From: Venturia oleaginea
Taxonomy: Eukaryota; Ascomycota; Dothideomycetes; Venturiales; Venturiaceae
Direction: 5' to 3'
Assembly: GCA_013176395.1 (NCBI GenBank)
Contig: JABMLP010000014.1
Location: 930,001 to 994,000 of the forward strand
Length of the DNA stretch: 64,000 nucleotides
A program made the position numbers and the translations under genes. The notes beneath the pieces were generated by a model. That model searched no databases. It saw only the letters and a program-made list of their open reading frames with translations, and was not told where the DNA came from. Below are positions 4,696-33,979 of this stretch, one piece after another (the stretch's first letter is position 1; every line of letters starts with the position of its first letter).

Positions 4696-5125
4696 AGTAA
4701 GTATCGGTGATCTCGTCCCCAAATATTGAAGTCCTGTAAAGGCAGCAGTGGTTTATCGTCCTCCCGGGACACCTGCGGCCACGGCCGCACCAGTCGATCG
4801 TACACTACAGATAGGTTTATTAGTCGGTTAATTGCCGTATGAACACATACATCAAAAAATCTAGCCAACACATACATCCAATTGCTAGGACATACATTGA
4901 AAACTGCGCATACATTCGCATACATTCTAGACTGTAAATGTATGTATTAGCAATAAATTTTGTCTATGAATTTGACCCACCTTTTGATGGCGACAACGTC
5001 GCAGTCGCAGTAAGTATACGCACTATACCGCATGTAAATAGTATATAGAAGGCTTTTATTGCATTTTTGAGCAATTCAGAGTCAGCTAATATCGTATTTA
5101 TTAAACTACTCCAACAACCTCCCAA

Positions 5126-5147
5126 CCTCCCTCCCTCCCTCCCTCTA
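5126..5147. repeat. CCCT/CCTC microsatellite
   Basis: Short run of tetranucleotide repeats (CTCCCTCC...) within the 3' flank of the SWIM ORF. Confidence 0.6.
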
Positions 5148-5187
5148 TTACAACCCCCGTCAACTCCGCTCTTCCTATCTACTTCCC

Positions 5188-6150
5188 TCACCTTGTACAA
5201 GCAGCTCCTGAGTGATTTGGAGAGCCGCAGTGACGGCAATTGCCTTGTGAACGTTTTGGGCGTTTGTTGGAAGCCTGTAGTATTAAAGTCTGAGTTTCTG
5301 CTGTATTGCGAGAGCGCTTCTTGGTAACTTTTGGTGGTAATGGCTCTTTCTGACTAACCTGAGTAGCCTTAATCTGTAGGAGCTCTTCAAGAGCATCGTC
5401 AGCATCGTCAAAGGCGGCCTCATCTTCAGAAATCTCGTTGTTTTGGGCCTGACGAGAAGATATAATCTCATCGTAAGTAGCATCCATTTCGGCTTCAAGA
5501 TCGTGATCAAATACCGCCGCTTCTTCGTCAGATTCCGAGTCGCTAGATGATGAAGACTCGTCTGAGATTTCGATGGTTTCATTACGCTTCCGGCGGCCTT
5601 TGGTAGCGGTTTTAGACGCTGCTTTTGATGATTTTTTACCCTGGGTTGATCTTTCAGCGGCCGTGGCTCCTTTGCGTTGAGAGTCCTTTCGAATACGGCT
5701 ATTCACATTATGCTTGCGCATACGAAGATGCTTCGGACGTCCTGGCTTACGATTTGGCTCACTAGGGAGAGTTTGACCATCTGGGATGAGATTCTTGATC
5801 AAAACTGGGCGTAGTGAGCCGCTGTAGGCTTTGCGGTATTGACTGCGCTCGTAAATAGTAGAATTGCCGTCAGTATACACAATTTTGAGGTCATATTTGA
5901 GAGCTAGAATGGCCGCAAAAACGTGAGCACATGGTAGACGATGGTCCTGCCATTCTAGGCAATCGCAGACTCCTTTATCAAGGTCTACAACCCAGCCTGC
6001 AGCGCCGGGAGATTCGTGGGCTTCAATAATCGCATCTGTGACTGCATTTGCGCCGTCTTCCAGGGAGTCAAATTGCATACCAATGGTGAGGGATGGATAG
6101 GGAGGCCTATCTTCAGGCCCAGGGCTTTCGAATGACGATGTGCGAGGCAT
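5188..6150 (-). CDS. SWIM zinc-finger protein, core-deleted MULE transposase derivative
   Basis: About 320 aa from the ATG at 6150; the frame is open upstream to 6264, but the 6150 start fits better because the MULE-like N-terminal block (PSLTIGMQFDSLEDGANAV) follows at once. Residues about 60-85 form a SWIM finger (CDCLEWQDHRLPCAHVF, CxC then CxH). A basic region, a Ser/acidic run and a C-terminal CCHC knuckle (CRHCGSPNHSGAAC) follow. The DDE/RNase-H-like core of about 250 residues that should lie between the N-terminal block and the SWIM finger is missing, yet the frame is clean. It could bind DNA or RNA but cannot catalyse transposition. A domesticated gene is possible but unlikely given the perfect flanking repeats. 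Confidence 0.7.
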   Translation of the reverse strand: MPRTSSFESPGPEDRPPYPSLTIGMQFDSLEDGANAVTDAIIEAHESPGAAGWVVDLDKGVCDCLEWQDHRLPCAHVFAAILALKYDLKIVYTDGNSTIYERSQYRKAYSGSLRPVLIKNLIPDGQTLPSEPNRKPGRPKHLRMRKHNVNSRIRKDSQRKGATAAERSTQGKKSSKAASKTATKGRRKRNETIEISDESSSSSDSESDEEAAVFDHDLEAEMDATYDEIISSRQAQNNEISEDEAAFDDADDALEELLQIKATQVSQKEPLPPKVTKKRSRNTAETQTLILQASNKRPKRSQGNCRHCGSPNHSGAACTR

Positions 6151-6382
6151 AATTGAGTGCGTAGTGTTGAGTTGTATTAAGTAAAAAATGTAGATATCAA
6201 AATGTGGTAAACAAAATTTAGAGTCACGTACGCGTGTTCGCGAAAGATGCACGAAATTGACCAATTAGAGCAATGTATGTATCAGCAATTTTTTTCTATG
6301 TATGTCCTAGCAATTGGATGTATGTGTTGGCTAGATTTTTTGATGTATGTGTTCATACGGCAATTAACCGTTTAAGTAAACC

Positions 6383-7193: not shown

Positions 7194-7428
7194 TGTCACG
7201 GGAGCGATAGAAGTAGTTGTAAAGCACGTTGACGAGTGTTTAGCCGTACTAGCTATGAGCGAGCGTGATAGAAGTCAAATGGTATTATCTTTCTAAGAGT
7301 CAAGACATTGCGTGAAGAATCTAAGCACAGTGGAGGAATCGCGAGGTAGGTAAGGGATTCCTCGGTTTGTGCGCTAGAATCACGTGTATACCAGTTCATG
7401 GTAACACTCTCAGTGTCACTCCGTGACA
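7194..7428. mobile_element. Solo LTR, about 235 bp
   Basis: Starts TGTCACGGGAG and ends ACTCCGTGACA, giving a long inverted terminus. The 5-bp flanks are GTGTC and ATGTC (4 of 5 match), consistent with an old target duplication. It lies 7 bp outside the left LTR of Gypsy-1, so Gypsy-1 landed next to it. Confidence 0.6.
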
Positions 7429-7435
7429 ATGTCCT

Positions 7436-7639
7436 TGTCACGTTTGACCTTGGACTTGACTTGGAAGCATGACTTGAATTCTATGGGATGTGCGAAGTTG
7501 TAAGGATGAGGAGCTAACTAAGAGGTAGAGACGAGTCTAAGTACTTGCGACCAGTCTCGCGCTAGACCTGATCGAGCAGAACCACCACATTTAACTACGT
7601 TTAACTGCATTCGAATACCAACATAGTTCGATCATGACA
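7436..7639 (-). repeat. Gypsy-1 3' LTR
   Basis: 204 bp, TGTCACGTTT... to ...GATCATGACA as read on the plus strand. Next to it on the element's 5' side is a purine-rich tract (complement of the CCCCCC at about 7644-7649) that fits a polypurine tract. It lacks the 15-bp internal duplication of the other LTR and differs by about four transitions and one transversion. Confidence 0.9.
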
Positions 7640-7680
7640 GTACCCCCCAACAAGGCCGAGGCGCAATGGTTCAAACTGAA

Positions 7681-10600
7681 CTATTTGGCGAGGTGACTGA
7701 CAAACTTGAAGCATGATCGAATCCTAACCAGGTCTGTACCCGGTTGGTTTTGGTTTTCTTGATATCTCTGGTGAAATTCATCAACCGCGCTCTTTGCGTT
7801 GTGCAAGAATTGAAGGGGTTCCCATGTCGGTAAGTAATAGCCTTCCCATTTAACCTTGTAGTCAAATCTCTTCGTAGCTTTGTTGAATCGTGAATCAACG
7901 ACTTCATCCAGGGTGTAGATTCCATCGTTTTCTTCAACATCGACGGGAGGAGGTTGCGAGTTATTCTGGTTTGGAAACATCCTGTCGGAAGGGGGGTAGG
8001 CAGGGAGCAGTAGATTTGTATGAAAGACGGGATGGCAATGCATAGAAGTAGGGAGCTCGAGTTTGTAAGCGTCGTGGTCTAGGGCTTGTAGAATCTTGAA
8101 TTTGCCGGCGAACTTGCAGTCGAACTTTTTGGATGGGCGCGTGGTCTTGATATTCTTGAGGTTAGCCAAACCCAGTCACCAACTTTGTAGTTTGGAGAAC
8201 CAAGCCGATGTTTGTTCTTGAAATATTCGTAGGTAGCGCTGGCGTGGCGGATCTCGTTGTAGCAAATCTTCTCAAGGTTTGCCATGAAGTCAGCCATGGA
8301 ATTAGCTTTTCGTGTCTCGGTAATTTCGTGGCGAGAGGCGTTACGGTCTGGTTGAATTGGCGCTTCCAATCCGGAGCGTGGATCGTAGCCGTAGGCGGCA
8401 AAAAATGGTGTGAGTTTTGTTGCATTGGAGGGTGTGTTGTTGATCACGAATTCGCAGAGTGGTAACCATTCGTCCCAATCATCTTGTTGATAATTGCAGT
8501 AAGCACGGATGTAGATTTCGACTTGGGCATTCGCTCGCTCGGTCCCGCCATCTGTCTCGGGGTGGAAACTGGTAGAGAGGCGGATTCGGATTCCGAGGCG
8601 TTTGCAGAGTACTTTCCAGAGGATAGCAACGAATTGGGATCCTCGGTCTGAGATAATGCTTCGAGGTAAGCCGTGGAGGCGGTAGACGTGTTGGAGAAAG
8701 AGTAAGGCGCATTCGCGGGCTTCTGGGAGTTTTTGGCAGGGAATAAGGTGCTTGATTTTGGTGAGGCGATCGACAATTACTAAGAGGCAGGTATTACCTC
8801 CTTTGGGTGTAGCAGGTAAATCGGTAATGAAGTCCATCTGGATGTCTTCCCATCTTCGTTGAGGGGCTTCGAGAGTGTTGAGGAGTCCTTGGTACATTAG
8901 GTTGCTCGGTTTTGCGCGTCGACAGGCGTCGCATCGTGAGACCCATTTGTCCGAGGTGGCGTGCATGCCATAGTAGAACTTGCGGAGTTTGAGGAAGTTG
9001 TTAGCTTTACCCGGGTGACCTGCGACATTACAGTCGTGGTTCGCTTTCAGAATGTATGCTTGTAGTGTATCGTCTTGGGGAATAAATAGACACTTTTTAT
9101 ACCAAAGGCGGCCGTCGCGTTCTTCGCAGTCCTGCATCCGCAACGTTCGGTGGTGGGTTTTGCCGCCGCGTAGTTTTTTCAAGACTTCGCGTGGTTCTTT
9201 GTCTTTAGTCAACGCTCTAGCGTAGAGTTCTTCAAACTTGTCTTCGTCCCAAATAAGCTCTTCGTCGTCTGGGTCTTGCGAAGGGATGAATATGTCCGGA
9301 GGGGAGAACGGGGTGGTTGGGGTTTGTTCTTCAGCTACTGCGTCGTTGCTAGGTTTGTTCCATATATCGTTGAGGGGCTCAAGGGATTCGTCCCCGTCAT
9401 TTTCGGAAGAGTCGCGGTAGTCTGGGTTTTTCTCGAAGTCTTGTGGAGAGGAGTGGTCACGAAGCGTAACTGGGCATAATGAAAGATTGTGGACTTGGAG
9501 CGCTAGTTCTTTTCGAATCTTAGGGTCAAGTGTGTGGGGTTTAAGCATAACCTGTGACTGGTGCTGGATACGCGGGTCGGATACGTTTGAGGGGAGGTCT
9601 TGGGAGCGGCGGGTCAAGGCGTCGGGTTTCGTAGTAACTTTTCCTGGTCTCCTCGAAGTGGAATTGGGAGAGGAATTCGGCCCAACGGGCTTGTCGGCGA
9701 GTGAGTTTTTTGGTTGACATGTAGTATTCGAGGTTTCGGTGGTCTGTAATAACTTCGATCGGGTCTTCAGTTCCTTCGAGCTCTTCTCGCCACTCTTCAA
9801 ATGCGCGAATGATTGCTAGGAGTTCTTTGTCGTAGATTTCGTAATTACACTCCTGGGGTGTGAACTTGTGAGAGAAGAAGGCGACGGGGTGTAGCAAACC
9901 GTCATTGCCGATTTGTGAGAGTACTCCAGCGCCTACCCAGTCGGAGGCGTCTGTTTCGACAATACACTTCTTTGTAGGGTCGAAATGTGCGAGGATTGGT
10001 GCGGAGATAAAGGCTTCTTGGAGTTTATCAAAAGCGGCGCGCTGTTTTGGGCCGAAGTAGAACGGCTTGTCTTTTTTCAGTAAGTCGGTAAGAGGTTTCG
10101 CGGTGGAGGAGTAATTGAAAATAAAACGGCGGTAGAAATTGGCAAAACCGAGGAAGGATTGGACGTCATGACGAGTAGTACAGTATTGCCAATCAATGAT
10201 TGTTTTGACTTTGTCCGGGTCCATCCGGATTCCGTGGTCTGTGATAATTAAACCGAGAAATTTGACTTCTGTCTGGTAGAATTCGCATTTGTCGATGTCG
10301 ATGTTGAGTCCTGCTGCGTGCATTCGTTCGATAACCTGCCGCACTTGAATTTTATGCTCTTCGAGAGTTTCGCTGTAGATTAGGATGTCGTCGAGGTACG
10401 CGGTGCAGAAAACGTCGAGGAAGTCTTTAAGTTGTTCGTTAATATACGACTGCCAGGTCGCCGGGGCATTGCAGAGGCCGAAGTTCATAACTAGAGATTC
10501 GAACAGACCGAAGCGGGTTCTGAATGCAGTGAGAGGAACGCTGTCGGGGTGGACTCGGAGTGCGTTGAATGCTGAGATAATATCGATCTTCGTGAAGTAC

Positions 10601-11688
10601 TTGGCTTTGCTGAGTTTGTCTAGGGTTTCGCGGAGTAAGGGAATAGGGTATCGGTTTTTTCGAGTAATGGCGTTGAGTTTTCGGTAGTCTACGCAGAATC
10701 GCAGACCACCACCTGGTTTTTTGACAAAGATACATGGGGAACTGACGTCGGACTGGCTTTTTCTGATAAAACCTTTTCCCAAATTCTCCTCCAGCCATTT
10801 CCGGAGGCATTTGAGTTCGTTCTGGGACATACCGTAGAGAGGAGCGTTGGGTAACTGGTCTTTCTTGTCTTCTTGAATTTCGATTTTGTGGTCGACGAGG
10901 CGTGAAGGGGGCAGTGAATCAGCAGCTTTTCTGTTAAAAGCGTGCGCGAGGTCGTGAAGGTCTTTGGGTAACTGGGGGCGAGGGTCTTTGTAATCTGGTT
11001 TCTTCGCCAGAAATTTATCGATATCTTGAATACTGATTGCGTAGATTTGAGCATTGGGCTGCTTAGAATTCCATTGAAAAGCGTGAGAGTTGACAATCTT
11101 CCAATCGCGAGGAGAGTCCGGGGTTTCTTGAGGGGGTGCGCGGGCACCAAACGGGAGCGGGATATACTCAACAGAGCCCTTGTGGCCCTGAAGTCATTTC
11201 TTAGAACAGTGGGTACCGAAGTGAATACTACGATTCTCAAAATCGAGTTTCACACCGTGGAGGTTCATCCAGGGAGTGCCAAAGATGACTGCTGCGGAGC
11301 CGAGACGGGTAACAAAGAATTTCGTGGTTTCGAGGTGGTGTTCTCCGGTTCTGACGGAGACGTGGATTTCGTGAGTAACGTAAGAGGGTGCAGAGGATGC
11401 CTGTTCGCCGTCAAAGGCTTTGAGGCGGCGGGGGTTTTCGAGGGGAATAAAGGGAAAGCCGTGGGATTGCGCAAAATCGAGGTCCATGAAACTTCCTGTG
11501 GCAAAGGAATCAGTAACGGCGAGGGTTTTGATCGATTCATTAAGTGTAATTGGGACTATGATTGGTCTAGAGTCTACTGGTCCATCAATCTCTCCTGTTG
11601 ATTTCTCTGAGTAACCTAGAACTGCCGAACTGATGTGAAGAACATGTCGTTTCGATTTGTTGTCGTGTCTTGATGAACATCTTTTCAA
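7681..11688 (-). pseudogene. Gypsy-1 pol (protease, RT, RNase H, integrase, chromodomain), broken
   Basis: Read from 11688 downwards. Protease block with DSFATG in place of the usual DSGATG, then a stop at about 11194. RT has [19 protein letters not shown] and the catalytic YLDD (FCTAYLDDILIYS). RNase H has ETDASDWVGAGVL and ITDHRNLEYY; a frameshift lies near 9655. Integrase has the zinc site (HDCNVAGH..CDAC) and DDE blocks (MDFITDLP, SDRGSQFV, HPETDGGTERAN). A second frameshift near 8170 separates the C-terminal chromodomain (YTLDEVVDSRF, YKVKWEGYYLPTWEP). All domains of a chromovirus are present, but no full polyprotein can be made. Confidence 0.9.
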
Positions 11689-13558
11689 CGAGACTGTGAG
11701 TTTTCCGAACTCGGGGTGTATGGGGCTGATCCGAAGCCGTAGCTTGTGGTGCTAGAAGAGGCGGTAGAACCTGAGCGTTCTTCAGGGCCTTGAGTGATCC
11801 GGGGAGTCTGGACGTTCTGTGGATACGCTCCCGATGCTCCTGACATACTCATATTGCTAAAGCTCATAGGGGGAATGAAGTTTCGAGCCCCGGAGTTGCC
11901 AAACTGCATGGGGTCACTGGCGAACTGGTTGGGAGTAGTGAACTGATTGGAGGGGCGTCCACGCTGGGCTTTTTTAGGGCATACGGCGGCGATGTGCTTC
12001 TGACCATTAGGCATAATTACTACGGGCTCTCCGCAGTATCCGCAACGGTTGTTGGTCTTTCGCCATTGGATATTGGCGGCTTTCTCTTCCAGGGTCCAGG
12101 ATGCAATTGGTTTCATCTGGAGAGACGGGAGGCAGGTACCTATGTCGGCGCCGGCACTACCGTTGAGGTTCATAACTGAAATGTCCATGGCATCTCCGAA
12201 AGCGTGAAAAGTGGCGGGGGAGACTAGGAATGCGCGTTGGGATGCAGAGGGAGCGGTAGCTGATGTAGATGATCCTGAGAATACGGGAGCTTTTCGAGCT
12301 CGAGAGATTTTCTCGAATTGTTTCATGTTGGCTTCGCAGTTGTGGCACAGATCGATTAACTCCTCCAGTTTCTTTGTCGTAGGGACGTGAATCATTGCTC
12401 CGCTGAGTTCTGCGCTCAGGCCGTTGCGAAAGTTGACAATCATAAGTTGTTCCAAGGGGTTTGCGGGTTCTGAGACGTGAGGGAGGGTGATTCCGGCTTC
12501 TTGGAGTAGGCGTCGGAAGTCTGCGGCGTAAGTAGCAAATGTTCGGTTTGCCATCTTGTGGTTCTGCAGCTTATTCATAGCATCTTGAGTATCGAAACGA
12601 GGAGCGTAGCTGTCGTTGAGTTTTGAGATAAATTCGTCGAGGGATTCAAAAGGCCATGAATTCGTAGTTTCGTTGTAGTATGGGCGAATTGTGGATTTGC
12701 ACTTGTCGTCAAGTCGATTGAAGGCGTAAGTAACTTGTGAGTTTACTGAAGGGAATGCTTTGGAGTCTGCGCTGAGTTTTATCCGGAGGTCTAAGAGCCA
12801 GCTCTTGTATTTGTTTTTATCTCCTTCAAAGATAGAGATGTCGCCTTGGGTTGGTCGAGGGGCAGAGATTTCGCGAGAAGTAACGCCCTGGAGCTCTGCT
12901 CGAAGGGCGCAAGCTTCGTTCTCAGAGGCTTCGAGCTTGAGTTCTTGAATTGAACGGGACATGGTATCCTGGTCTCGCTGGGCTGTGTTGAACATATGGG
13001 AGATGGTAGCTAAAAGCTGGAGGAGTGGGAGCGCCGAAGCGCGGTCGAGAGTAACGTGTGAGACTGGGACGTATTCATTTTCGTTGACTGAGTGTCACGG
13101 GATGGTATCCTATATCTATTTTATCCTAGGTGGATTCTTAGCAATTCCTGGTAGGTTCCTGATAGTTCTCACGTGCGCCTAGCAGGGATTATTCAGGGAC
13201 CGTTTCACATGCGCTTCTACTCCTTTCTATTCTCTTCTCAGGACAGCATGTCCTTTTCCTACTTGGAAGATTATATATACAAGTTGTTCTTCCTGTATCT
13301 ACTCTTTCTTCTTTGTACTTAGATACTTCGAAATACAAGCAGTCTTCTCTCACCTGCGAAACACCTTTGAGGGTTGAACTCTTACACTGAGGCTTCGTCC
13401 GCCGGGGTTGCAAAGGTAGCTTGGATCTTCTGAGTAAGGGTTGCTGCGAGTCTAGGGGTTATAGAGAAGTCGTAGAAGGCTAGGGGGTTTTCGAGAGTAC
13501 TGTTTTCGAGGGTGGTAGTATCGTCCGCAAGGGAGGGAAGGTCGAGAATTCGGGGCAT
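11685..13558 (-). pseudogene. Gypsy-1 gag, split by a solo LTR
   Basis: The 3' portion (12995-11685, 436 codons) has the capsid-like region (GDISIFEGDKNKYKSWLLDL) and an unusual zinc knuckle with a long loop (CGYCGEP, then IAAVCPKK). The 5' portion starts at the ATG at 13558 (MPRILDLPSLADD) and is open to 13387. If the LTR at 13093-13386 and one copy of its target duplication are removed, the two parts join in one frame. The host copy was therefore intact when the LTR element arrived. Confidence 0.85.
13093..13386. mobile_element. Solo LTR (family A) inside Gypsy-1 gag, 294 bp
   Basis: Plus-strand ends are TGTCACGGGATGG and GAACTCTTACA. A 5-bp target duplication CTGAG sits on both sides (13088-13092 and 13387-13391). 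Read on the minus strand it begins TGTAAGAGTTCAACCCTC, the same start as the solo LTR at 25680, so the two are one family in opposite orientation. Confidence 0.9.
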
Positions 13559-13618
13559 AGTTGGTGAGGTTTGTCGGCTGCGTAGACAATAGCAGCCCGA
13601 CTTTTATCGTGAAAAGGG

Positions 13619-13628
13619 ATCCTTACAA
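13619..13628 (-). promoter_or_regulatory. Gypsy-1 putative self-priming primer-binding site
   Basis: Two bases after the 5' LTR the element reads TTGTAAGGAT. Its complement ATCCTTACAA lies inside the same LTR (plus-strand 13693-13702). No TGG-type tRNA primer site is visible. Tf1-like elements prime from their own 5' RNA in this way. Seen: the 10-nt complementarity. Inferred: its use. Confidence 0.6.
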
Positions 13629-13630
13629 AC

Positions 13631-13849
13631 TGTCACGTTTGACCTTGGACTTGACGTGGAAGCATGACTTGAATTCTATGGGATATGCGAAGTTGTAAGG
13701 ATGAGGAGCTAACTAAGAGGTAGAGACGAGTCTAAATACTTGCGACCGGTCTCGCGCTAGACCTGATCACGCTAGACCTGATCGAGCAGAACCACCACAT
13801 TTAACTACATTTAACTGCATTCGAATACCAACATAGTTCGATCATGACA
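13631..13849 (-). repeat. Gypsy-1 5' LTR
   Basis: 219 bp. It is longer than the 3' LTR because a 15-bp unit (CGCTAGACCTGATCA) is tandemly duplicated at about 13755-13785. The differences between the two LTRs show that the copy is not recent. Confidence 0.9.
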
Positions 13850-14204: not shown

Positions 14205-14272
14205 TTTTTGATAAAGAGAGTCTGGAGGGATGTTGACGCAAAGATGTTGGGAAATTGGTTTTGATGTATTTA

Positions 14273-15372
14273 ACGTGTTTCACCATTCACTTGGCCACCC
14301 CACTCACTTGGCCACCCAACCAAAAAGTCTAATCCCTTCGTACAATTATCGCGATAATGTTAACACCAAACCCCCGGATCGGCTTGCAAAGAGGCTAGAT
14401 TACTTCTTGCGAAGCAGAGCTTTCAAACGAATCCAAATTTAAGTCAACGTCAAATCTCAGCGTCGTACGATATTCCTCGATCTACACTTCAGTCTCGTCT
14501 TCAAGGTTGTAAACCACGAAGCGAATCTAACCACCAAAAGAGAAAGTTACAAATACTTGAAGAGCAGGCTCTGGTTCAGTGGATCCTAGACCTTGATCGA
14601 CGTACGACGAATGGCAAACGCTTTACTCGAAAAACGCGGTAGGAATCCTCCACCGTCATTAGTCGGGAAGAACTGGGTATCCCGCTTCATCAACGCTCAG
14701 CCGGAGCTTTGTACGAAGTGGAATCGTAAATTCCATTCACAGCGTGCAAAATGCGAAGATCCAGCGACAATCAACGCGTGGTTTCAGCGTGTTGAAGAGA
14801 CGCCCTCACCACCAGGTACACCCCATAGAGTAGCGCCACAGTGGACGTCAGAAACTCCTCGTACGATAGCTCAGCTTGAGCAGCAGGCTCAGCTCGTCCG
14901 AAATCTTCTTCATCGCCAATCTCAGAGCCCAAGTAGTCAAGCAATTGGTCAACTCATCAAAGGATGTCAAGTCGCAATGAATTCAGCAGTAATACTTGCA
15001 GAAGAGAATAGGAAGCTTCGTACAGAGAACCAACGACGAAAACAGAATCAACAGTATCGTAGACGATATATTGCATATGGAGGCGTTTTACAAGCTCAAC
15101 AGGGTCAGTTCTTGGCCGAGGGATGCGAAAATAGCTCTAGAGATAGTGTTCAAGATCAGGAAGTCGTCGTACGACAGCGAGCATTACCAACATGTAGTGG
15201 CTACGGTATTCAAGGTCATAAGATTAATCGATGCCCAAATACGTAAAGAATGTATTGTTAGAATTATTATAACAAAAGCTGTATTGGTGGGAGGTTTATC
15301 GCACGATGACTTGAGATTTAGTGGTTGGGGTGGCCAAGTGAGTGGGGTGGCCAAGTGAGTGGTGAAACACGT
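14273..15372 (+). mobile_element. Fot1/pogo-like (Tc1/mariner) element, core-deleted, 1.1 kb
   Basis: TA target duplication at 14271-14272 and 15373-15374. Terminal inverted repeats of about 50 bp start ACGTGTTTCACC. Each carries the unit CACTTGGCCACCC twice in direct order, a likely pair of transposase-binding sites. Inside is a broken ORF with the N-terminal DNA-binding and C-terminal knuckle parts of a Fot1-type transposase but no catalytic part. Confidence 0.85.
14470..15246 (+). pseudogene. Remnant of Fot1-like transposase (CENP-B-type HTH plus C-terminal knuckle)
   Basis: From about 14470 one frame reads YDIPRSTLQSRLQG and then LEEQALVQWILDLDRR, a psq/CENP-B HTH layout. A small lesion near 14605 shifts the frame to the 14593-15246 ORF, which has KNWVSRFINAQPEL and an RAKCEDPATINAWF block. 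Next comes a Q-rich coiled-coil stretch (LAEENRKLRTENQRRK) and a degenerate knuckle (CSGYGIQGHKINRC). The DDE domain of about 200 residues is absent. Non-functional as a transposase. Confidence 0.75.
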
Positions 15373-15374
15373 TA

Positions 15375-15851
15375 GCTCCATCGTAACATCCTTAGTCTTA
15401 CATGGCTAATGGCGCTTGGACGACACTTCAGAACGTTTTCAATCTCTTGCCGTACTGTAAATCGTTCCTCAAACTTATTCCCGTCAAAGACGAGGTTTCC
15501 TACGTCAAAGACGAGGTTTCCTAAATAACGATTTCCATATTCGTTCCAATAATTCCCGGATCGCCTTCAAAATCCCGGCGTGACAAACCTTGTGATTTGC
15601 GACGAGCTAGAGCTCTTGGAAGATTATACTCGTGCTAGGAGCTCGGATGACTCTCACGCTGAATAATAGGATGCAGTACGTCACCACTATCGACGGATTT
15701 AACACGCTGTCAAAGAGTCTTTCCATATAAGCTAATAGCCTAATTTACAGAAATTGATTTGCTATCACTAGCCGAGTAATATCAAACAAGACAATACATG
15801 CTTCTATGCTTATCGTTCATGGGCTAAACTCCAAAACCCTAACATTCAGAC
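15375..15851. other. Spacer between transposon and aldo-keto reductase gene
   Basis: No gene seen. It contains an 18-bp direct repeat (TACGTCAAAGACGAGGTTTC-like unit twice near 15482-15525) and the probable 3' UTR region of the reductase. Confidence 0.4.
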
Positions 15852-17170: not shown

Positions 17171-17278
17171 GGGTGTTTTTAACCGTAAACTTTTAAGACT
17201 TTAGCTGAAACAGTAGATTAATAGTAAACTTACGGTTGTATTTTTTTGCAACCGTAAAGTTGCAGTTATTCTACCGTT
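17171..17278. repeat. Left part of a MITE-like element split by Gypsy-2
   Basis: GGGTGTTTTTAACCGTAAAC here is inverted at 22866-22891 (AAAGTTTACGGCATAAAAACACCC). Removing Gypsy-2 leaves an element of about 140 bp with imperfect inverted ends and internal ACGGTTG/CAACCGT hairpins. It is non-coding. Confidence 0.5.
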
Positions 17279-17454
17279 TGTTATGGGCATGGCCCATGGT
17301 TGGTATAGGCTAAGAGCCTAAGCCTGATTGAGCCTAGTATAGAGAAAGAACCTCATTGAGGTTCTCTGTTTGTAGATACCTTCACTCCTTAACTGAATCT
17401 AAACAATCTTTGGCTACGAGTATGCTGCGTCTTTCCAGCTACCGTCCCGTAATA
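17279..17454 (+). repeat. Gypsy-2 5' LTR
   Basis: Starts TGTTATGGGCATGG and ends CCCGTAATA, an unusual TG..TA end rather than TG..CA. It holds palindromic stretches (GGCATGGCC, AACCTCATTGAGGTT). Confidence 0.92.
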
Positions 17455-17465
17455 TAGATTCAGTT
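17455..17465 (+). promoter_or_regulatory. Gypsy-2 putative self-priming primer-binding site
   Basis: TAGATTCAGTT begins immediately after the 5' LTR and is the exact complement of AACTGAATCTA at 17391-17401 inside that LTR. This is the arrangement of Tf1-type self-primed reverse transcription, where the 5' end of the RNA folds back on the site. It predicts a transcript start near 17391. Confidence 0.7.
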
Positions 17466-17488
17466 CTTTACAAACCTAGGTGTACTTG

Positions 17489-18397
17489 ATGCGTAGCAAC
17501 AGTACCCTATCGGCTCCTACAACCTACACCCCTACTACCGACGACGACCCAATCGCGAGCATTACGCAAGGAATCGACAAACTCTCAATGGCTCGAGCAA
17601 ATTCGCCTGACACCGTACAACAATTGGTGGCAGCTCTGACCGCAGTCAGTGTTGATGGGAACACCGGTGCAAAAGCTATTGCATGGCCTAAATGGGACGG
17701 GAAAAGAGACAACTACACGCTGTTCAGATGGCAGATCAAGACAAAAATCACTGTTGAAAATGGGAAGCTTGGAAGCAATCAAGGAATATGCGCGAACATC
17801 TTCAACGGGCTTCCGACAGAGAAACAACAACGCGTCATCCAATGGCTAAGCAATGGAGAGCAACATGACAACTACGAACCCGAGTCCTTTATCAAGCATA
17901 TGGACGACAAGTTCTTAGATCATGAAGCGGAAGCTAAAGCTCTCGACGAGCTGAACAAGATTAGCCAAGGCAGCAGACAACCGTTCGAAGACTTTCGCCA
18001 GCAGTTCGAACAACTGACATCGCACGCTGGATCCCTAGCGCCGCAAAGAGCCTCAAAGATCACTATCATGAACAACGCGCTCAACTACTCCCTCCAACAG
18101 ACCTTGAAATCAGTGCGATTGTCCAGGGACGACTACGACACTTACGTAAAAGATGTACAGTACTTCGCGACGAAGACAGAGGCTCTATCCCACCAACGCC
18201 GCTATCCAAGTACGGATAAGGAGACGCCAACGACTCGAGGGAGGCCACAATCACCCCAAACAGTCAGTCGTGACGCAGAAGGCGATGTCGAAATGACTGG
18301 CATCAACGCCCTTTCAGCGCAGATCGCAGCACTGATAGCTCGGGTCGATACACTCGGAAAGGATGCGAAGAAGGACCGACGACCTAGAGCGAAATAG
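17489..18397 (+). CDS. Gypsy-2 Gag (capsid part)
   Basis: About 302 aa from the ATG at 17489. Has a retrotransposon gag fold signature (WPKWDGKRDNYTLFRWQIK; LDELNKISQGSRQPFEDFRQ). The frame ends with TAG at 18395-18397, just before the zinc knuckle that normally closes Gag. The same frame continues open for another 61 codons after the stop (next feature). Confidence 0.85.
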   Translation: MRSNSTLSAPTTYTPTTDDDPIASITQGIDKLSMARANSPDTVQQLVAALTAVSVDGNTGAKAIAWPKWDGKRDNYTLFRWQIKTKITVENGKLGSNQGICANIFNGLPTEKQQRVIQWLSNGEQHDNYEPESFIKHMDDKFLDHEAEAKALDELNKISQGSRQPFEDFRQQFEQLTSHAGSLAPQRASKITIMNNALNYSLQQTLKSVRLSRDDYDTYVKDVQYFATKTEALSHQRRYPSTDKETPTTRGRPQSPQTVSRDAEGDVEMTGINALSAQIAALIARVDTLGKDAKKDRRPRAK

Positions 18398-18583
18398 CGA
18401 TCCCAAACAGAGTTCTTGGCACTTATACAAGCGGGCAAATGCGGGCGCTGTAAGAAGCCCAAGCACCACCCGAACGTATGCGAATTCCGACCAGCAACAC
18501 GTCCAAAGACTCAGGTCACTGCGGTAATCACACAGCATACCGATGACTCCCTACAGGAAGCCTCATCAGAGTCGGAAAACTAG
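18398..18583 (+). CDS. Gypsy-2 Gag zinc-knuckle extension behind an amber stop
   Basis: In frame with gag after TAG 18395-18397; reads a CCHC knuckle CGRCKKPKHHPNVC and stops at TAG 18581-18583. It has no ATG of its own, so it is made only by stop read-through, or the TAG is a mutation. The pol frame overlaps its end (18547-18583) in the -1 phase. Confidence 0.6.
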   Translation, partial: RSQTEFLALIQAGKCGRCKKPKHHPNVCEFRPATRPKTQVTAVITQHTDDSLQEASSESEN

Positions 18584-21500
18584 CTACCCTTGTGCATCGT
18601 CGCGCACGAGGGTCTGAAGTAGATGTACATGGCGAAGACATTACAAAGCTACCAGGCATAAGAGAAATCAAAGCAGCAAAGGATAGGATGGAAAGTACAC
18701 CCTTCTTGATAGATACCTTGATCAACGGAACTTCTTTCACCGAATCCTTCTTTGATAACGGCTGCCTCCCTTATGCTGCTTTCAGCGAGAAGAGTGTCCA
18801 AACACATCGTCTACCGCGCATCCCAATTGACACCAAACAATTGGCACTGGCTAAAGAGAGCCACGAGAACGGAGAAGACCTCCGTATTACGCACATGACC
18901 TACGCTACGATCGACATTGATGGTCGAGCAGAGCGAGTCTACGGGTATATAGTGAAAGGATTGAGCTTCCCTATTATCCTAGGCAAGGCATGGGCAGAGA
19001 GAAACTGGGTGCGATATATAGCAGCTAAGAGAAAGCTGCTTATTGGTCAAGGATCCCAGCGCATCACGGTAAGAGAAAAGGGGTGGCTAGAACAGAACAC
19101 CAAAGCGCGAGACCGGCTCGCTCACGTGCGGGCGGCTTGTCTAGTGTCAGGATCTGTATTTGCAGCTATTGTTGGAAGGGCCCAGCGACGGTTGAGAAGA
19201 GATGGACCGGATGGTACACAAGTGCTGGCTATCTCGATGTCGGATATCAACAAGGCCCTAAGCAAGTTAGCAGAAAGAAAACAGAGAAAGACTGAGGAAG
19301 AAATCCGACAAGAGATACCAGAAGAAATAGCAGAGCATGCTGATGCCTTTCTCGACGACGAAGACGGAGAGATCGCGCCCCATCAAGAGGGTCGCGATCA
19401 CGTTATCGAATTGATACGAGATGAACAAGGTCGCGAGGCAGAAGTTCCTTGGGGCCCATTATACGGCATGTCGAGGGAAGAGCTATTAGTCCTACGAAAA
19501 ACACTTTCGGACTATATGGACAAGGGCTGGATACGCGCCAGCAACTCACCAGCGGCAGCCCCAGTCTTATTTGTAAGGAAACCAGGTGGAGGCATTCGGA
19601 TGTGTGTAGACTATCGGGCACTGAATCGAATCACTCGATCGGACCGCTACCCATTGCCACTAATCCGAGAAACCCTACGAAATCTAGCAACAGCGCGTTG
19701 GTACACCAAACTTGACGTCAGAGCGGCATTTCATCGGCTCCGCATCAAGCACGGCGATGAGTGGAAAACGGCTTTTCGCACTCGATTTGGACTATTCGAA
19801 TGGCTAGTTACCCCCTTCGGACTAGCTGGCGCACCCGCGAGCTTTCAACGATACATCAACGGAGTCCTACGGGAATCCCTAGATATCTGCTGTTCAGCCT
19901 ACATGGACGATGTCTTGATATGGAGCGACGGCGACTATCTGGATCACATGGTTAAGGTTAACCAAATTCTTGCCAAGCTCAAGACTGCTGGACTTCGGCT
20001 AGACTTAAGCAAGTGCGAGTTTGCTGTTCAGGAGGTCAAATATCTGGGGTTCATTATCACTGCAGGAGAAGGGATCAAAGTCGACCCAGAGAAAGTTGCC
20101 GCGATTAAAGAATGGGAGGCTCCAGTCAATGTCACAGGCGTACGCTCCTTCCTAGGCTTTGCAAATTTCTACCGAGACTTCATCGACAACTTCTCAGAGC
20201 TCTCCGACCCCTTAATCAAGTTAACACGGAAGGCCGTCGCTTTTGTCTGGAACAAAGAACATGAGAACGCCTTTCAAGTCTTGAAGGAGCTATTCATCTC
20301 CGCCCCAATACTGGCTCACTGGAATCCAGACCTGGATACGGTACTCGAGTGCGACTGCTCTGGCTACGCGCTGGGAGGCACGTTGTCGCAGAAGGATATG
20401 AAAGGAAAACTACGACCAGTAGCATACTTCTCCCGCAAGCTCACTGCGGCTGAATGTAACTACGAGATCCACGATAAAGAATTACTGGCAGTAATCAAGT
20501 CCATTGAACACTGGAGAGGAGAACTACGCAGTGTTGCAGCACCTTTCAAAGTCCTTACCGATCACAAGAATCTCCGCTACTTTATGACAGCGCAGCGTTT
20601 GTCAGAGAGACAAGCAAGATGGTCGCTAATTCTATCTGAGTACCAATTCCAGCTGGAATTTCGCGCCGGAAAACTAGCGCAAAGACCAGACGCACTATCA
20701 AGAAGACATCAAGATATGCCACATGACAAGAACGACGAGAGACTACAAGGGCGAGTGGCCCAGTTGATCAAGGACGAATGGCTTCCTCCTCTTTCCGAGA
20801 GGACGACCGAAACAATCGCAATACAAGCCCTTATCTGCCCAGTCAATACACCGAATACATCCAATAGTACATGGGACGTTATACGGGAGCCCCAGCAAAA
20901 TACTGGACTGGACGGTCGACACCAGCTGACTGCCGAAAACGGTCAACACCGGTCCACTACTAGGTACGGTCAAAACCGGTCAGTTGCAAAAGGATGCGAT
21001 CTTTTCGAGAAACCAGAGTTACAACTTCTCTGGGATCGCGCAATAGCAGAGGACCAATCCTACGAAGCTATTCATACGGCTATAGTTACTGGCGAACGTT
21101 CCTTTCCTCCAGAGCTCAAGTTGTCGGTACAGCTACCCGAATGCGAAGTAGACGACCACGGCGCGGTCACGAGAAGAGGGATCCTATGGGTACCAGATTG
21201 GGAACCGCTGCGAACAACGCTGGTCCAACAAACTCACGATTCCCATGTTACTGGACACCCAGGGAGAGATAGCACGCTTGCGATTCTATCCAGAAGTTTC
21301 TTTTGGCCCCAACAATACAAGACAGTCCGGCAGTTTGTACGTAATTGCGACGTATGTGGGAGAACAGGAATATGGCGTGATAAGAAGCGAGGTCTTCTGA
21401 AACCACTTCCAATCCCGGCCCGCTTCCACAGCGAGCTATCAATCGATTTCATGACTGATTTGCCCGCAGAGGAAAACGGCCCAAAATACCTCATGGTTAT

Positions 21501-22716
21501 CACAGATCGCCTCCTCAAAAGTGTTACGTTGGAGGCTATGACTACAATGAGCGCCAAAGAGTGCGCGAAAAGGTTCTTACAATGCCACTATCGCTACCAC
21601 GGATTTCCCATGGCATTGACGTCGGACAGAGGCAGCAATTGGACAGGTCGTTTTTGGAGGAAGCTTTGCGAACTTACAAAGATTGAGCAGAGACTCTCTA
21701 CAGCCTTTCATCCACAGACTGATGGCGCGACCGAGCGCATGAACCAGGAAGTTCTACGCTATCTCCGCGCCTTCATCGCATACTCCCAACTAGACTGGCC
21801 AACGCTACTACCTACGGCTATGTTAGCACTGAACAATCGTGACTCTTCAGTCACAGGGATGAGTCCATTCTATCTAACCCACGGCTACCATGCGGAACCA
21901 ATCCAGAAAGTACAACGAATCTCACCCAGTAACTCACCAACAGCCGATGCCGAGACCTTTGTGCAACGAATAGAAGAGGCACAAGAATATGCACAGGCAG
22001 CGATGGCCTGGTCCCAGCAGAAGATGGAGAACGACGCCAACAGGTCACGTCAAGCTGCCGAAACGTTAAAAAAGGGCGACAAAGTCTGGTTGAACCTTAG
22101 GAATATCAATACTCCGCAGCTATCAAAGAAACTGTCGTGGACGCAAGCCAAATACACTGTCGAGAACCAGATCTCCCCGATGGTATACGAGCTGGCTGAC
22201 CTGCCAAGTGGTATCCATAACCGTTTCCACGTTGACCTACTCCGCCGAGCCGCAACCGACACACTGCCCTCACAAGAATCCGATGATACCCAGCCGCCAC
22301 CATTAGTGCCTCAAACCGAAGAAACAGAGGCTGAGTTTGAAGTAGAACGTATACTTCGCGCAGAGAAGAAACGGGTTGGACGAGGCTGGGTTCGTCAGTT
22401 ATTAATCAAATGGAAAGGCTATGCAGATCCCGATTGGCAGCCACGTTCATTATTTACAGAAGTCGAGGACTTAGACCGCTTCGAGGCAGAGTATGGCAAG
22501 GGCGACGGTGTCGGCGAAGATATAGGAGCTCAAACAGGGGCCCGAAGAAACCGAGTAGCGGTGGCCAGCGCCTTCGAATCTGCTACAAGCTGGCAGAAAG
22601 CGATGTATGGCGTTTGTCTGTTTGATTATCCCACCTACCACACCCTCTTTAGTCCTGCACACCCGGTAAGGAGGGGGGTAATGTTATGGGCATGGCCCAT
22701 GGTTGGTATAGGCTAA
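18547..22716 (+). CDS. Gypsy-2 Pol polyprotein, intact
   Basis: Open from 18547 to 22716 in the -1 phase relative to gag; no good ATG near the start, so a -1 frameshift in the 18547-18583 overlap is the likely entry. Domain order: protease with active-site FFDNGC (DNG rather than DTG/DSG); RT with FVRKPGGGIRMCVDYRALN and YMDD (CCSAYMDDVLIWS); RNase H (LECDCSGYALGG, IHDKELLAVI, LTDHKNLRYF); integrase zinc site (HDSHVTGH..CDVC) and DDE blocks (IDFMTDLP, TSDRGSNW, HPQTDGATERMN); C-terminal chromodomain (EFEVERILRAEKK, LLIKWKGYADPDWQP). The chromodomain implies targeting to marked chromatin. No internal stop was found. The stop lies inside the 3' LTR. Confidence 0.92.
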   Translation, partial: LPTGSLIRVGKLATLVHRRARGSEVDVHGEDITKLPGIREIKAAKDRMESTPFLIDTLINGTSFTESFFDNGCLPYAAFSEKSVQTHRLPRIPIDTKQLALAKESHENGEDLRITHMTYATIDIDGRAERVYGYIVKGLSFPIILGKAWAERNWVRYIAAKRKLLIGQGSQRITVREKGWLEQNTKARDRLAHVRAACLVSGSVFAAIVGRAQRRLRRDGPDGTQVLAISMSDINKALSKLAERKQRKTEEEIRQEIPEEIAEHADAFLDDEDGEIAPHQEGRDHVIELIRDEQGREAEVPWGPLYGMSREELLVLRKTLSDYMDKGWIRASNSPAAAPVLFVRKPGGGIRMCVDYRALNRITRSDRYPLPLIRETLRNLATARWYTKLDVRAAFHRLRIKHGDEWKTAFRTRFGLFEWLVTPFGLAGAPASFQRYINGVLRESLDICCSAYMDDVLIWSDGDYLDHMVKVNQILAKLKTAGLRLDLSKCEFAVQEVKYLGFIITAGEGIKVDPEKVAAIKEWEAPVNVTGVRSFLGFANFYRDFIDNFSELSDPLIKLTRKAVAFVWNKEHENAFQVLKELFISAPILAHWNPDLDTVLECDCSGYALGGTLSQKDMKGKLRPVAYFSRKLTAAECNYEIHDKELLAVIKSIEHWRGELRSVAAPFKVLTDHKNLRYFMTAQRLSERQARWSLILSEYQFQLEFRAGKLAQRPDALSRRHQDMPHDKNDERLQGRVAQLIKDEWLPPLSERTTETIAIQALICPVNTPNTSNSTWDVIREPQQNTGLDGRHQLTAENGQHRSTTRYGQNRSVAKGCDLFEKPELQLLWDRAIAEDQSYEAIHTAIVTGERSFPPELKLSVQLPECEVDDHGAVTRRGILWVPDWEPLRTTLVQQTHDSHVTGHPGRDSTLAILSRSFFWPQQYKTVRQFVRNCDVCGRTGIWRDKKRGLLKPLPIPARFHSELSIDFMTDLPAEENGPKYLMVITDRLLKSVTLEAMTTMSAKECAKRFLQCHYRYHGFPMALTSDRGSNWTGRFWRKLCELTKIEQRLSTAFHPQTDGATERMNQEVLRYLRAFIAYSQLDWPTLLPTAMLALNNRDSSVTGMSPFYLTHGYHAEPIQKVQRISPSNSPTADAETFVQRIEEAQEYAQAAMAWSQQKMENDANRSRQAAETLKKGDKVWLNLRNINTPQLSKKLSWTQAKYTVENQISPMVYELADLPSGIHNRFHVDLLRRAATDTLPSQESDDTQPPPLVPQTEETEAEFEVERILRAEKKRVGRGWVRQLLIKWKGYADPDWQPRSLFTEVEDLDRFEAEYGKGDGVGEDIGAQTGARRNRVAVASAFESATSWQKAMYGVCLFDYPTYHTLFSPAHPVRRGVMLWAWPMVGIG

Positions 22717-22857
22717 GAGCCTAAGCCTGATTGAGCCTAGTATAGAGAAAGAACCTCATTGAGGTTCTCTGTTTGTAGATACCTTCACTCCTTAACTGAA
22801 TCTAAACAATCTTTGGCTACGAGTATGCTGCGTCTTTCCAGCTACCGTCCCGTAATA
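22682..22857 (+). repeat. Gypsy-2 3' LTR
   Basis: Same length and sequence as the 5' LTR, directly after the polypurine tract and followed by the CCGTT duplication. Confidence 0.92.
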
Positions 22858-22891
22858 CCGTTTCAGAAAAGTTTACGGCATAAAAACACCC

Positions 22892-29000: not shown

Positions 29001-29026
29001 GGGCTAGACCCTTGGGCCTTCATCTA

Positions 29027-30162
29027 ACGTAATTCACTAGCGAGCGGGCCACACCACCGAGCGGGCTACCGAATCGATCATTTCATCTTTGCAAGCCTCT
29101 ACACCACCACCTCATCCACCTCATGCCTTCTAAAGCCCAGCAAGAAGGCCGATTACTTCTTGCTCTTCAAGCCTATCAAAAAGGCCAAATCACAACTATT
29201 TGCCAAGCTGCATTAGCTTATAATGTACCATACAGTACCCTCAAATATCGCCTCTCTGGACGCGTTGCACGCGTCGAAACGCGCGCAAACAGCCACAAAC
29301 TTACTCCCACAGAGGAAGAAGTCTTAACTCAATGGATTATCTCAATGGATAATCGAGGCTATCCTGCTCGAGTCTGTGCAGTACAGAATGCGGCGAAATT
29401 ACTGCTTCAACAACGCGTCGGTCCCTCAGCCTCAATCGGTATCAACTGGTCTGCCAGGTTCATCAAGCGACAGCCTACCCTGCAATCGAGATTCAATCGC
29501 AAGTACGATTATCAGCGTGCTCAATGCGAAGATCCAGAGCTTATCGGAGCCTGGTTTCGGCTTGTGAGTAATACAATTCAGAAATACGGCATTCAAGAGG
29601 AGGATATCTATAACTTCGATGAGACTGGCTTTGCAATGGGTATTGCAAGCACATCACGCGTCCTTACTACCTCAGATCGACGGGGCAAGCCACCTCAATT
29701 ACAGCCAGGCGATCGGGAGTGGGTTACAGCAATTGAAGCGACTGTTGGCAGATGAGAATGAGAAATTGAGAGCAGCGAATGAGAGGCAAAAGAGGAAGAG
29801 AGCAGTCAAAAAAAAGCAGATCTCAAAGAAAATAACACTTACAGTTGCAGAGGCACAAGGCCTGATGGAGAATACTGTACAGCAGCCTATACAGGCAAGT
29901 GTTGCTCCTATACAGCAAACAGTTGTTGCAACAGCCTCGTCATCAAGTAGTGCAAGTCAAGGGAATTGCTTTGGTTTACCTAGTTGTTTTGTATGTAAGG
30001 GCTTTGACCATGCTGCGAGCGATTGCCCTAAATATCGATAATCTTCTGTATAATAGATAGTCTTGATTAATAAAGGCGTTGTGGTGGTGTAAGCTTGCAA
30101 AGATGAGATGATCGATTCGGTGGCCCGCTCGGTGGTGTGGCCCGCTCGCTAGTGAATTACGT
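29027..30162 (+). mobile_element. Fot1/pogo-like element, core-deleted, 1.14 kb
   Basis: TA target duplication at 29025-29026 and 30163-30164. Inverted ends of about 65-70 bp start ACGTAATTCACTAGCG and contain a repeated CGAGCGGGC motif. The two ends differ at only a few positions. Different family from the element at 14273, but the same internal layout. Confidence 0.88.
29123..30041 (+). pseudogene. Fot1-like transposase, catalytic core deleted
   Basis: First ORF 29123-29755 (210 aa): psq-type HTH (ALAYNVPYSTLKYRLSG), CENP-B-type HTH (INWSARFIKRQPTLQSR), CEDPELIGAWF, and the first catalytic Asp block YNFDETGFAMG. Then the frame jumps to the second, overlapping ORF (29619-30041 in another phase), whose useful part is a coiled coil (ADENEKLRAANERQKRKR) and a C-terminal knuckle CFVCKGFDHAASDC. 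About 150-200 residues with the second and third acidic residues are missing. Could still encode a DNA-binding fragment. Confidence 0.8.
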
Positions 30163-30374
30163 TAGGCTTTGCCTATCTCTCTAGGGCAAGCTTGTGAATG
30201 GCTTGACATCTCCTGTCAAACCTCGGAATAATTCTGTGGCAAGCATGCGAATAGCTTGGCATCTCCTTCAAGAGGAGTTTGCAATCGTGTACCTATCTTT
30301 TCCTCCTTAGCTAGATTGTATTGTACAATTGGGTGGTTTTCCCTGGTATCCAGGCATGATCTTAACCCGTCACA

Positions 30375-33301: not shown

Positions 33302-33658
33302 ATGTCAACAGATGGAATCCCCCAAATATCCATGGATAGCAAACCTCGCTATAGTCTTCCCCATCCTCCAATATTCAACGGAACAAAGTCACAATGGCGC
33401 GGTTGGAAGTTGGAAATTGAGGGGAATATTGAAGAAGATGCCAACGCTATTGGCAACGTCAGGTCCCAGCTACGGTACATCTTCTCGCGCTTAGAAGGAG
33501 CTGCAAGAACAAACATCACCACTTTCTATGAATTGGAGCTTAGAAAGGTTACCCCAAGCCCTCAAGCATTGATTAGCCGTTTAGACCTTTTGTATGGAGA
33601 GCGCAACCGCAAAGATAAAGCTATCCAGGCTCTCCACACAATAGGTCTAAACGGCTAA
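33302..33658 (+). pseudogene. Gypsy-3 Gag, N-terminal part
   Basis: ATG at 33302; reads HPPIFNGTKSQWRGWKLEIE and RYIFSRLEGAARTNI, a gag capsid start. It ends in the inverted duplication, so its last codons are back-to-front copies of upstream sequence. Confidence 0.75.
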
Positions 33659-33765
33659 TCAATGCTTGAGAGCTTGGGGTAACCTTTCTAAGCTCCAATT
33701 CATAGAAAGTGGTGATGTTTGTTCTTGCAGCTCCTTCTAAGCGCGAGAAGATGTACCGTAGCTGG
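33466..33765. repeat. Inverted duplication of gag sequence (hairpin arms about 135 bp)
   Basis: 33466-33602 (from CCAGCTACGGTACATC) is repeated in reverse at about 33630-33765 (to GATGTACCGTAGCTGG), with only about 4 differences. The spacer is about 28 bp. The right arm ends exactly where the solo LTR begins (33766). Confidence 0.88.
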
Positions 33766-33979
33766 TGTCATGATCGAACTATGTTGGTATTCGAATGCAG
33801 TTAAATGTAGTTAAATGTAGTTAAATGTGGTGGTTCTGCTCGATCAGGTCTAGCGCGAGACCGGTCGCAAGTATTTAGACTCGTCTCTACCTCTTAGTTA
33901 GCTCCTCATCCTTACAACTTCGCACATCTTATAGAATTCAAATCATGCTTCCAAATCAAGTCCAAGGTGAAACGTGACA
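33766..33979 (+). mobile_element. Solo LTR of the Gypsy-1 family, 214 bp
   Basis: TGTCATGATCG to AAACGTGACA, same family as the Gypsy-1 LTRs but with three copies of TTAAATGTAG instead of two. Flanking 5-mers GCTGG and GGTAC do not match, so there is no target duplication. Left of it is the inverted gag arm, right of it the rest of gag. Confidence 0.88.

Follow-up and report, generated by a model that had tools for sequence, protein, structure and literature searches.

How is minus-strand DNA synthesis primed in a long terminal repeat (LTR) retrotransposon whose 5′ LTR is followed by no recognizable site for the 3′ end of a transfer RNA (tRNA)? The question is raised by Gypsy-2, an element that occupies positions 17279-22857 of a 64,000-nucleotide (nt) window of the Venturia oleaginea genome (assembly GCA_013176395.1, contig JABMLP010000014.1, positions 930,001 to 994,000 of the forward strand). 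It has the LTR pair, the short target site duplication (TSD) and the polypurine tract of a Ty3/gypsy LTR retrotransposon. An earlier sequence-only reading of the window had described identical LTRs, a primer site complementary to the LTR and the lack of a tRNA-type TGG site, from which Tf1-like self-primed reverse transcription was proposed. The two LTRs are indeed identical (176/176 bases), and both the coordinates and the letters of the complementary pair are correct: TAGATTCAGTT (17455-17465), at offset 0 from the end of the 5′ LTR, is the exact complement of AACTGAATCTA (17391-17401) over 11 of 11 bases. TGG is absent between 17455 and 17490. The self-complementary primer site of Gypsy-2 is real. 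A primer site that pairs with the LTR of the same element, together with no detected site for a tRNA 3′ end, is the combination seen in the Tf1/sushi group, to which Gypsy-2 probably belongs. It is very likely, judging from these features, that Gypsy-2 is a Ty3/gypsy element of Tf1/sushi type whose minus-strand synthesis would be primed by its own RNA, and there is high confidence that it would work like Tf1.

The 11-nt match was reached in one of 2000 trials in which the 30 bases following the LTR were shuffled base by base (offsets 0-6), and its simple expectation for offsets 0-2 is 1.2e-4. Folding of the RNA, suggested by the sequence-only reading as a check, recovers the pairing. The predicted fold of the 110-nt RNA spanning 17391-17500 (-25.5 kcal/mol, z -2.18, equalled by 3 of 200 shuffled sequences) includes the 11-base-pair helix, whose mean pair probability in a longer leader is predicted to be 0.947. 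Pairing stops at base 11, while base 12 (A) lies unpaired opposite the last A of the LTR. The exact primer pair is found at 149 places in the genome (46.1 Mb, 61 contigs); the pair pattern is its own reverse complement and the same places are therefore counted on both strands. A stretch of 87 nt around the primer site has 152 places within 3 mismatches. Identical LTRs, together with the large number of near-identical copies, point to recent movement of the Gypsy-2 family.

The layout is found in all five Ty3/gypsy families of the genome with a readable LTR pair, namely Gypsy-2, Gypsy-1, A, C and F. The survey grouped 30 reverse transcriptase loci out of 150 matches, both ends of six elements were fetched, and one further family came from the window. 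In each family 8-11 nt positioned no more than 2 nt from the end of the 5′ LTR are complementary to the family's own LTR, and these sequences are unrelated between families. The post-LTR sites are TAGATTCAGTT in Gypsy-2 (match of 11 nt, reached by 1 of 2000 shuffles), TTGTAAGGAT in Gypsy-1 (10 nt, 1 of 2000), ACATTGCGT in family A (9 nt, 7 of 2000), ATAACCAC in family C (8 nt, 62 of 2000; the LTR used is incomplete at its left end) and AGTGAAGATAC in family F (11 nt, 2 of 2000). Since the primer sequences are unrelated across the five families, the layout does not represent one inherited match. The complete primer helix is present in the best predicted fold of all four leaders that were folded (Gypsy-2, Gypsy-1, A and F), the leader of family C being too long. 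Four copies of family A (L081-L084), whose identity to the reference across this region is 84-85%, have both halves of the pair unchanged; both halves are kept in 6/9 fetched copies of family A overall, in 4/4 of family F and in 3/7 of Gypsy-1, the latter seven being among the most diverged of 40 rows. The count of five leaves aside family D (fetched ends lacking an LTR pair), family B (fetched ends made of repeats) and two elements of the window, at about 24-29 kb and 34-38 kb, which have no LTR pair. An element first labelled G was rejected as a separate family, C and G being one family. Pieces matching the LTRs of families A and C, apparently solo or truncated, lie at 7194-7428 and 37840-38535 of the window.

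In the proposed mechanism, transcription would start at 17391 or only a few bases away and the RNA would begin with AACUGAAUCUA. Its first 11 bases would fold back onto the primer binding site at 17455-17465, and a cut after base 11 by the ribonuclease H (RNase H) of the element would yield an RNA primer of 11 nt. Cleavage at this position is a step carried over from Tf1, where it reportedly takes place. Extension of the primer would copy U5 and the remainder of R, and the strong-stop DNA would then transfer to the R located at the RNA 3′ end. The pyrimidine stretch and the TATA-like box that precede the primer half fit a transcription start at that position. Pyrimidines account for 32 of the 40 bases in the eight positions preceding the five primer halves, against LTR averages of 0.47-0.56. 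The TATA-like box starts at -53 in Gypsy-2 (6/8 positions matched), -36 in Gypsy-1 (6/8), -40 in A (7/8), -41 in C (7/8) and -36 in F (8/8). Note that the Gypsy-2 and Gypsy-1 boxes are weak, with further 6-of-8 sites in the same LTR.

A Copia element of the same genome (n=1; L104, L105) provides a contrast. Its LTR ends in ...TTTTGACA and is followed by GGTTATGAGCCCGGGC; the self-primer layout is absent from it, its best self-match being 5 nt, a length reached by 851 of 2000 shuffles. The complement of GGTTATGAGCCCGGGC resembles the anticodon arm of initiator tRNA-Met; the site looks like one for priming by half of tRNA-iMet, and priming of this kind may occur in the host. Gypsy-2 could accordingly have a tRNA, or an internal fragment of one, as primer, its self-complementarity being incidental or put to another use. 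We consider this very unlikely: TGG does not follow the Gypsy-2 LTR up to 17490, five families whose primer sequences are unrelated to one another share the layout, and exact AACTGAATCTA followed by a T-loop motif within 31 bases has 0 occurrences genome-wide, in a search that mismatched or intron-split tRNAs would escape. A tRNA matching the site better, which the sequence-only reading had named as a finding that would speak against it, was not encountered among sequences carrying the exact 11-mer.

The hairpin could also be an RNA signal for packaging, dimerization or control of translation and have no part in priming. Whatever its role, the helix should form in the RNA leader according to the predicted folds, but a signal of this kind explains neither the start of one arm 0-2 nt from the LTR end in all five families nor the absence of a TGG site in Gypsy-2, and it is assigned little probability. 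That a chance match was fixed by amplification of one founder, to which the 149 near-identical copies of one lineage could be ascribed, is extremely improbable given a probability of order 1e-4 to 1e-3 for Gypsy-2 and the same layout in four further families.

Priming of Gypsy-2 by its own RNA nevertheless has to be weighed against several observations that speak against it. The first concerns the 'pretzel' structure of Tf1, of which the central duplex is predicted in Gypsy-2 while the third duplex was not seen there in a simple duplex test (466 of 500 shuffles as good). Across the other families the same test gave 132 (Gypsy-1), 408 (C), 10 (A) and 9 (F) shuffles of 500 as good, the third duplex beating most shuffles in families A and F only. 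The 8-nt match of family C is weak when taken alone, and a Gypsy-1-like LTR at 33767-33979 has no complementary match in the bases after it; this LTR was set aside as putatively solo-like. Other observations come from copies in which one half of the pair is altered. When one base pair of the helix was allowed to vary, the Gypsy-2 pattern matched 141 places, and the variant rows listed include two with a changed LTR half (AACGGAATCTA) and one with a changed site half (TAGATTCGGTT). Four of the seven fetched Gypsy-1 copies do not have both halves intact, three of them having the LTR half ATCCCTACAA and one a changed site half. Three of the nine fetched family A copies (L085-L087) keep the LTR half intact with a diverged post-LTR site: the bases after the LTR begin as in family A (ACTACATT) but further on depart from it, so that 5 bases can still pair. 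These three are identical to one another over the fetched piece and were omitted from the count of four unchanged copies given above.

Copies with only one conserved half, which the sequence-only reading had regarded as contrary to its proposal, therefore do exist. The flanks that were read, those of altered Gypsy-2 and Gypsy-1 copies, fit a base change that arose once the element had inserted and was then multiplied by duplication or conversion; L085-L087 may be one decayed insertion. In two Gypsy-2 copies with AACGG (contig C9; L077-L080) the change is confined to the 5′ LTR and absent from the 3′ LTR. Their flanks are different, with the TSD ATTTG around one copy and no matching TSD around the other. 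We infer for these variants a base change after insertion that was spread by recombination or conversion. The three Gypsy-1 copies with ATCCCTACAA are one duplicated insertion, because a left flank is common to all three. The Gypsy-2 copies compared individually were chosen as best matches, and the copies of this family are so nearly identical that they offer hardly any variation in which paired changes could show. Copies L025, L026 and L031, and likewise L015 and L016, lie on different contigs and share the same 15 bases of left flank, which points to duplicated segments or contig ends.

The coding capacity of the window copy bears on the further claim that its mechanism could be live. The frames of Gypsy-2 are given in Table 1. 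Among the 31 copies compared, the window copy included, gag has 364 codons in 21, is 302 codons long in L013 as in the window copy, and in one runs off the end of the retrieved segment. The end of a full-length gag would fall at 18581-18583 of the window, and the pol frame, set back by one, is already open from 18547, an arrangement from which pol would be expected to be expressed by a -1 frameshift. The gag stop of the window copy falls before the gag-pol overlap region. Since gag is shortened and its stop lies upstream of this overlap, the window copy is, contrary to the earlier claim, probably not autonomous.

The description of pol as intact holds in part. The domains recognized by Pfam are open, in the order reverse transcriptase, RNase H and integrase, and the closest solved relative is Ty3 (7q5b, Ty3 Gag-Pol, E 1e-104). 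However, 32 of the 33 other scored copies align over residues 1-1352 of the 1374 only, and the remaining one spans all 1374 residues but has two stops. In the window pol, the matches to a chromodomain at the carboxyl terminus of the integrase, as expected of a chromovirus (E 0.0035, 17.7 bits against a Pfam cut-off of 25.1), and to an SH3_Tf2-1 domain, as expected of the Tf1/sushi group (E 8.5e-6, 26.2 bits against a cut-off of 30), score below threshold; matches with E<=0.01 are present in 17/20 and 15/20 members of the pol alignment, respectively. Tf1-like self-priming is well supported at the level of the family, by the 149 places, the five families of five, the pyrimidine stretch and TATA-like box that precede the primer halves (the box weak in Gypsy-2 and Gypsy-1), the lack of a detected tRNA alternative and the contrast with Copia, but not as a live process in the window copy.

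Table 1. Features of the Gypsy-2 and Gypsy-1 elements (window coordinates).
Feature	Coordinates	Strand	Remarks
Target site duplication CCGTT, left	17274-17278		same 5 bases at 22858-22862
5′ LTR, TGTTATGG...CCGTAATA	17279-17454	+	176 bp
Weak TATA-like box TATAGAGA	17338-17345	+	53 bases upstream of putative RNA start; 6/8 match
Pyrimidine-rich stretch ACTCCTT	17384-17390	+	precedes putative RNA start
Self-primer half AACTGAATCTA	17391-17401	+	putative RNA bases 1-11, start of R
Remainder of R-U5	17402-17454	+	loop closed by primer helix (predicted fold)
Primer binding site TAGATTCAGTT	17455-17465	+	complement of self-primer half
gag	17489-18397	+	ATG 17489, stop 18395-18397; 302 codons in window copy (364 in 21/31 copies compared)
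pol open frame	18547-22716	+	reverse transcriptase, RNase H, integrase; sub-cut-off SH3_Tf2-1 and chromodomain; -1 relative to gag; ~34 nt overlap with full-length gag
Polypurine tract AAGGAGGGGGG	22668-22678	+	before 3′ LTR; read by eye
3′ LTR	22682-22857	+	identical to 5′ LTR; second primer-half copy at 22794-22804
Target site duplication CCGTT, right	22858-22862		
Gypsy-1, second Ty3/gypsy element	7436-13849	-	LTR TGTCA...TGACA; 10-nt pair ATCCTTACAA / TTGTAAGGAT, offset 2

The LTRs of Gypsy-2 end in TG...TA (17449-17454; 22852-22857), with boundaries fixed by the TSDs of two insertions, that of the window and L079/L080. The LTR end is found at 144 places with at most 1 mismatch, and among the matches listed it reads CA in one and TA in all others. 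The remainder of the window has other repeats and host sequence. A 137-nt inverted repeat (33466-33765; arms 98% complementary and separated by 26 nt) immediately precedes the solo-like LTR of Gypsy-1 type. An open reading frame with a SWIM zinc finger between 84-nt inverted repeats (4820-6375) looks like a DNA transposon of the MULE type. Two pairs of inverted repeats, of 60 and 73 nt and about 1 kb apart, are transposon-like (14258-15387 and 29024-30165). The host gene ESF1 (42737-44869) is 88% identical to that of Venturia inaequalis and 85-86% identical to those of two other Venturia, values that place the host among the relatives of this genus.

It is possible, though on balance doubtful, that self-priming is the rule for the Ty3/gypsy families of this genome and that each family drifted to its own unrelated primer, the two halves rewriting each other free of constraint by host tRNAs. 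Drift of this kind would follow from the renewed copying of the primer into the primer binding site at each round. This one genome of a filamentous ascomycete brings together several families whose self-primer sequences are unrelated, and a Copia element to set against them, so that the means by which primer and site keep their match can be tested by comparison. Among the titles listed by a literature search none concerned the Gypsy-2 element, a result that makes no claim of wider absence in print, and no relative was found among viral contigs.

The closest known system is Tf1 of Schizosaccharomyces pombe, which has, like Gypsy-2, a post-LTR primer site complementary to a stretch of LTR that would be the 5′ end of the RNA. 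The self-primer of Tf1 is said to be 11 nt long, equal to the Gypsy-2 match. The SH3_Tf2-1 and chromodomain matches, both below cut-off in Gypsy-2, may be a further likeness; no counterpart of the third Tf1 duplex was found in the simple duplex test of Gypsy-2. Tf1/sushi elements are described as having in common the self-priming discovered in Tf1, in which two further duplexes accompany a central primer duplex (PMC10085805). In the same source Tf1 has one open reading frame, unlike the separate gag and pol frames of Gypsy-2, and a figure legend gives CA as the invariable final dinucleotide of the 5′ LTR for the elements of that figure, against TA in Gypsy-2. The legend of Fig. 4 names MAGGY, REAL, skippy and Cgret among other chromoviruses, which are Ty3/gypsy elements of filamentous ascomycetes as Gypsy-2 is, and lists the -1 frameshift, which the Gypsy-2 frames fit, as one Gag-Pol strategy. 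According to PMC6317226, self-priming is likely common to Tf1/sushi elements, is confined to Tcn1 among the chromoviruses of plants, and is predicted also for the Copia lineage TAR. The Tf1 mechanism is stated to require perfect complementarity in PMC5445492, an account of fungal GalEa elements that resemble Gypsy-2 in having no tRNA primer site and a conserved hairpin. GalEa elements differ in being Copia; no primer site is reported for them, and their hairpin is set apart from the Tf1 structure (PMC5445492). Tj1 of S. japonicus is an active element whose transposition has been demonstrated by experiment, and a self-primer was proposed for it, as for Gypsy-2, on the ground that LTR and primer site are complementary (PMC4600332). 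The self-priming mechanism is already known from fission yeast, and Gypsy-2 is a clear new example of it rather than a new principle.
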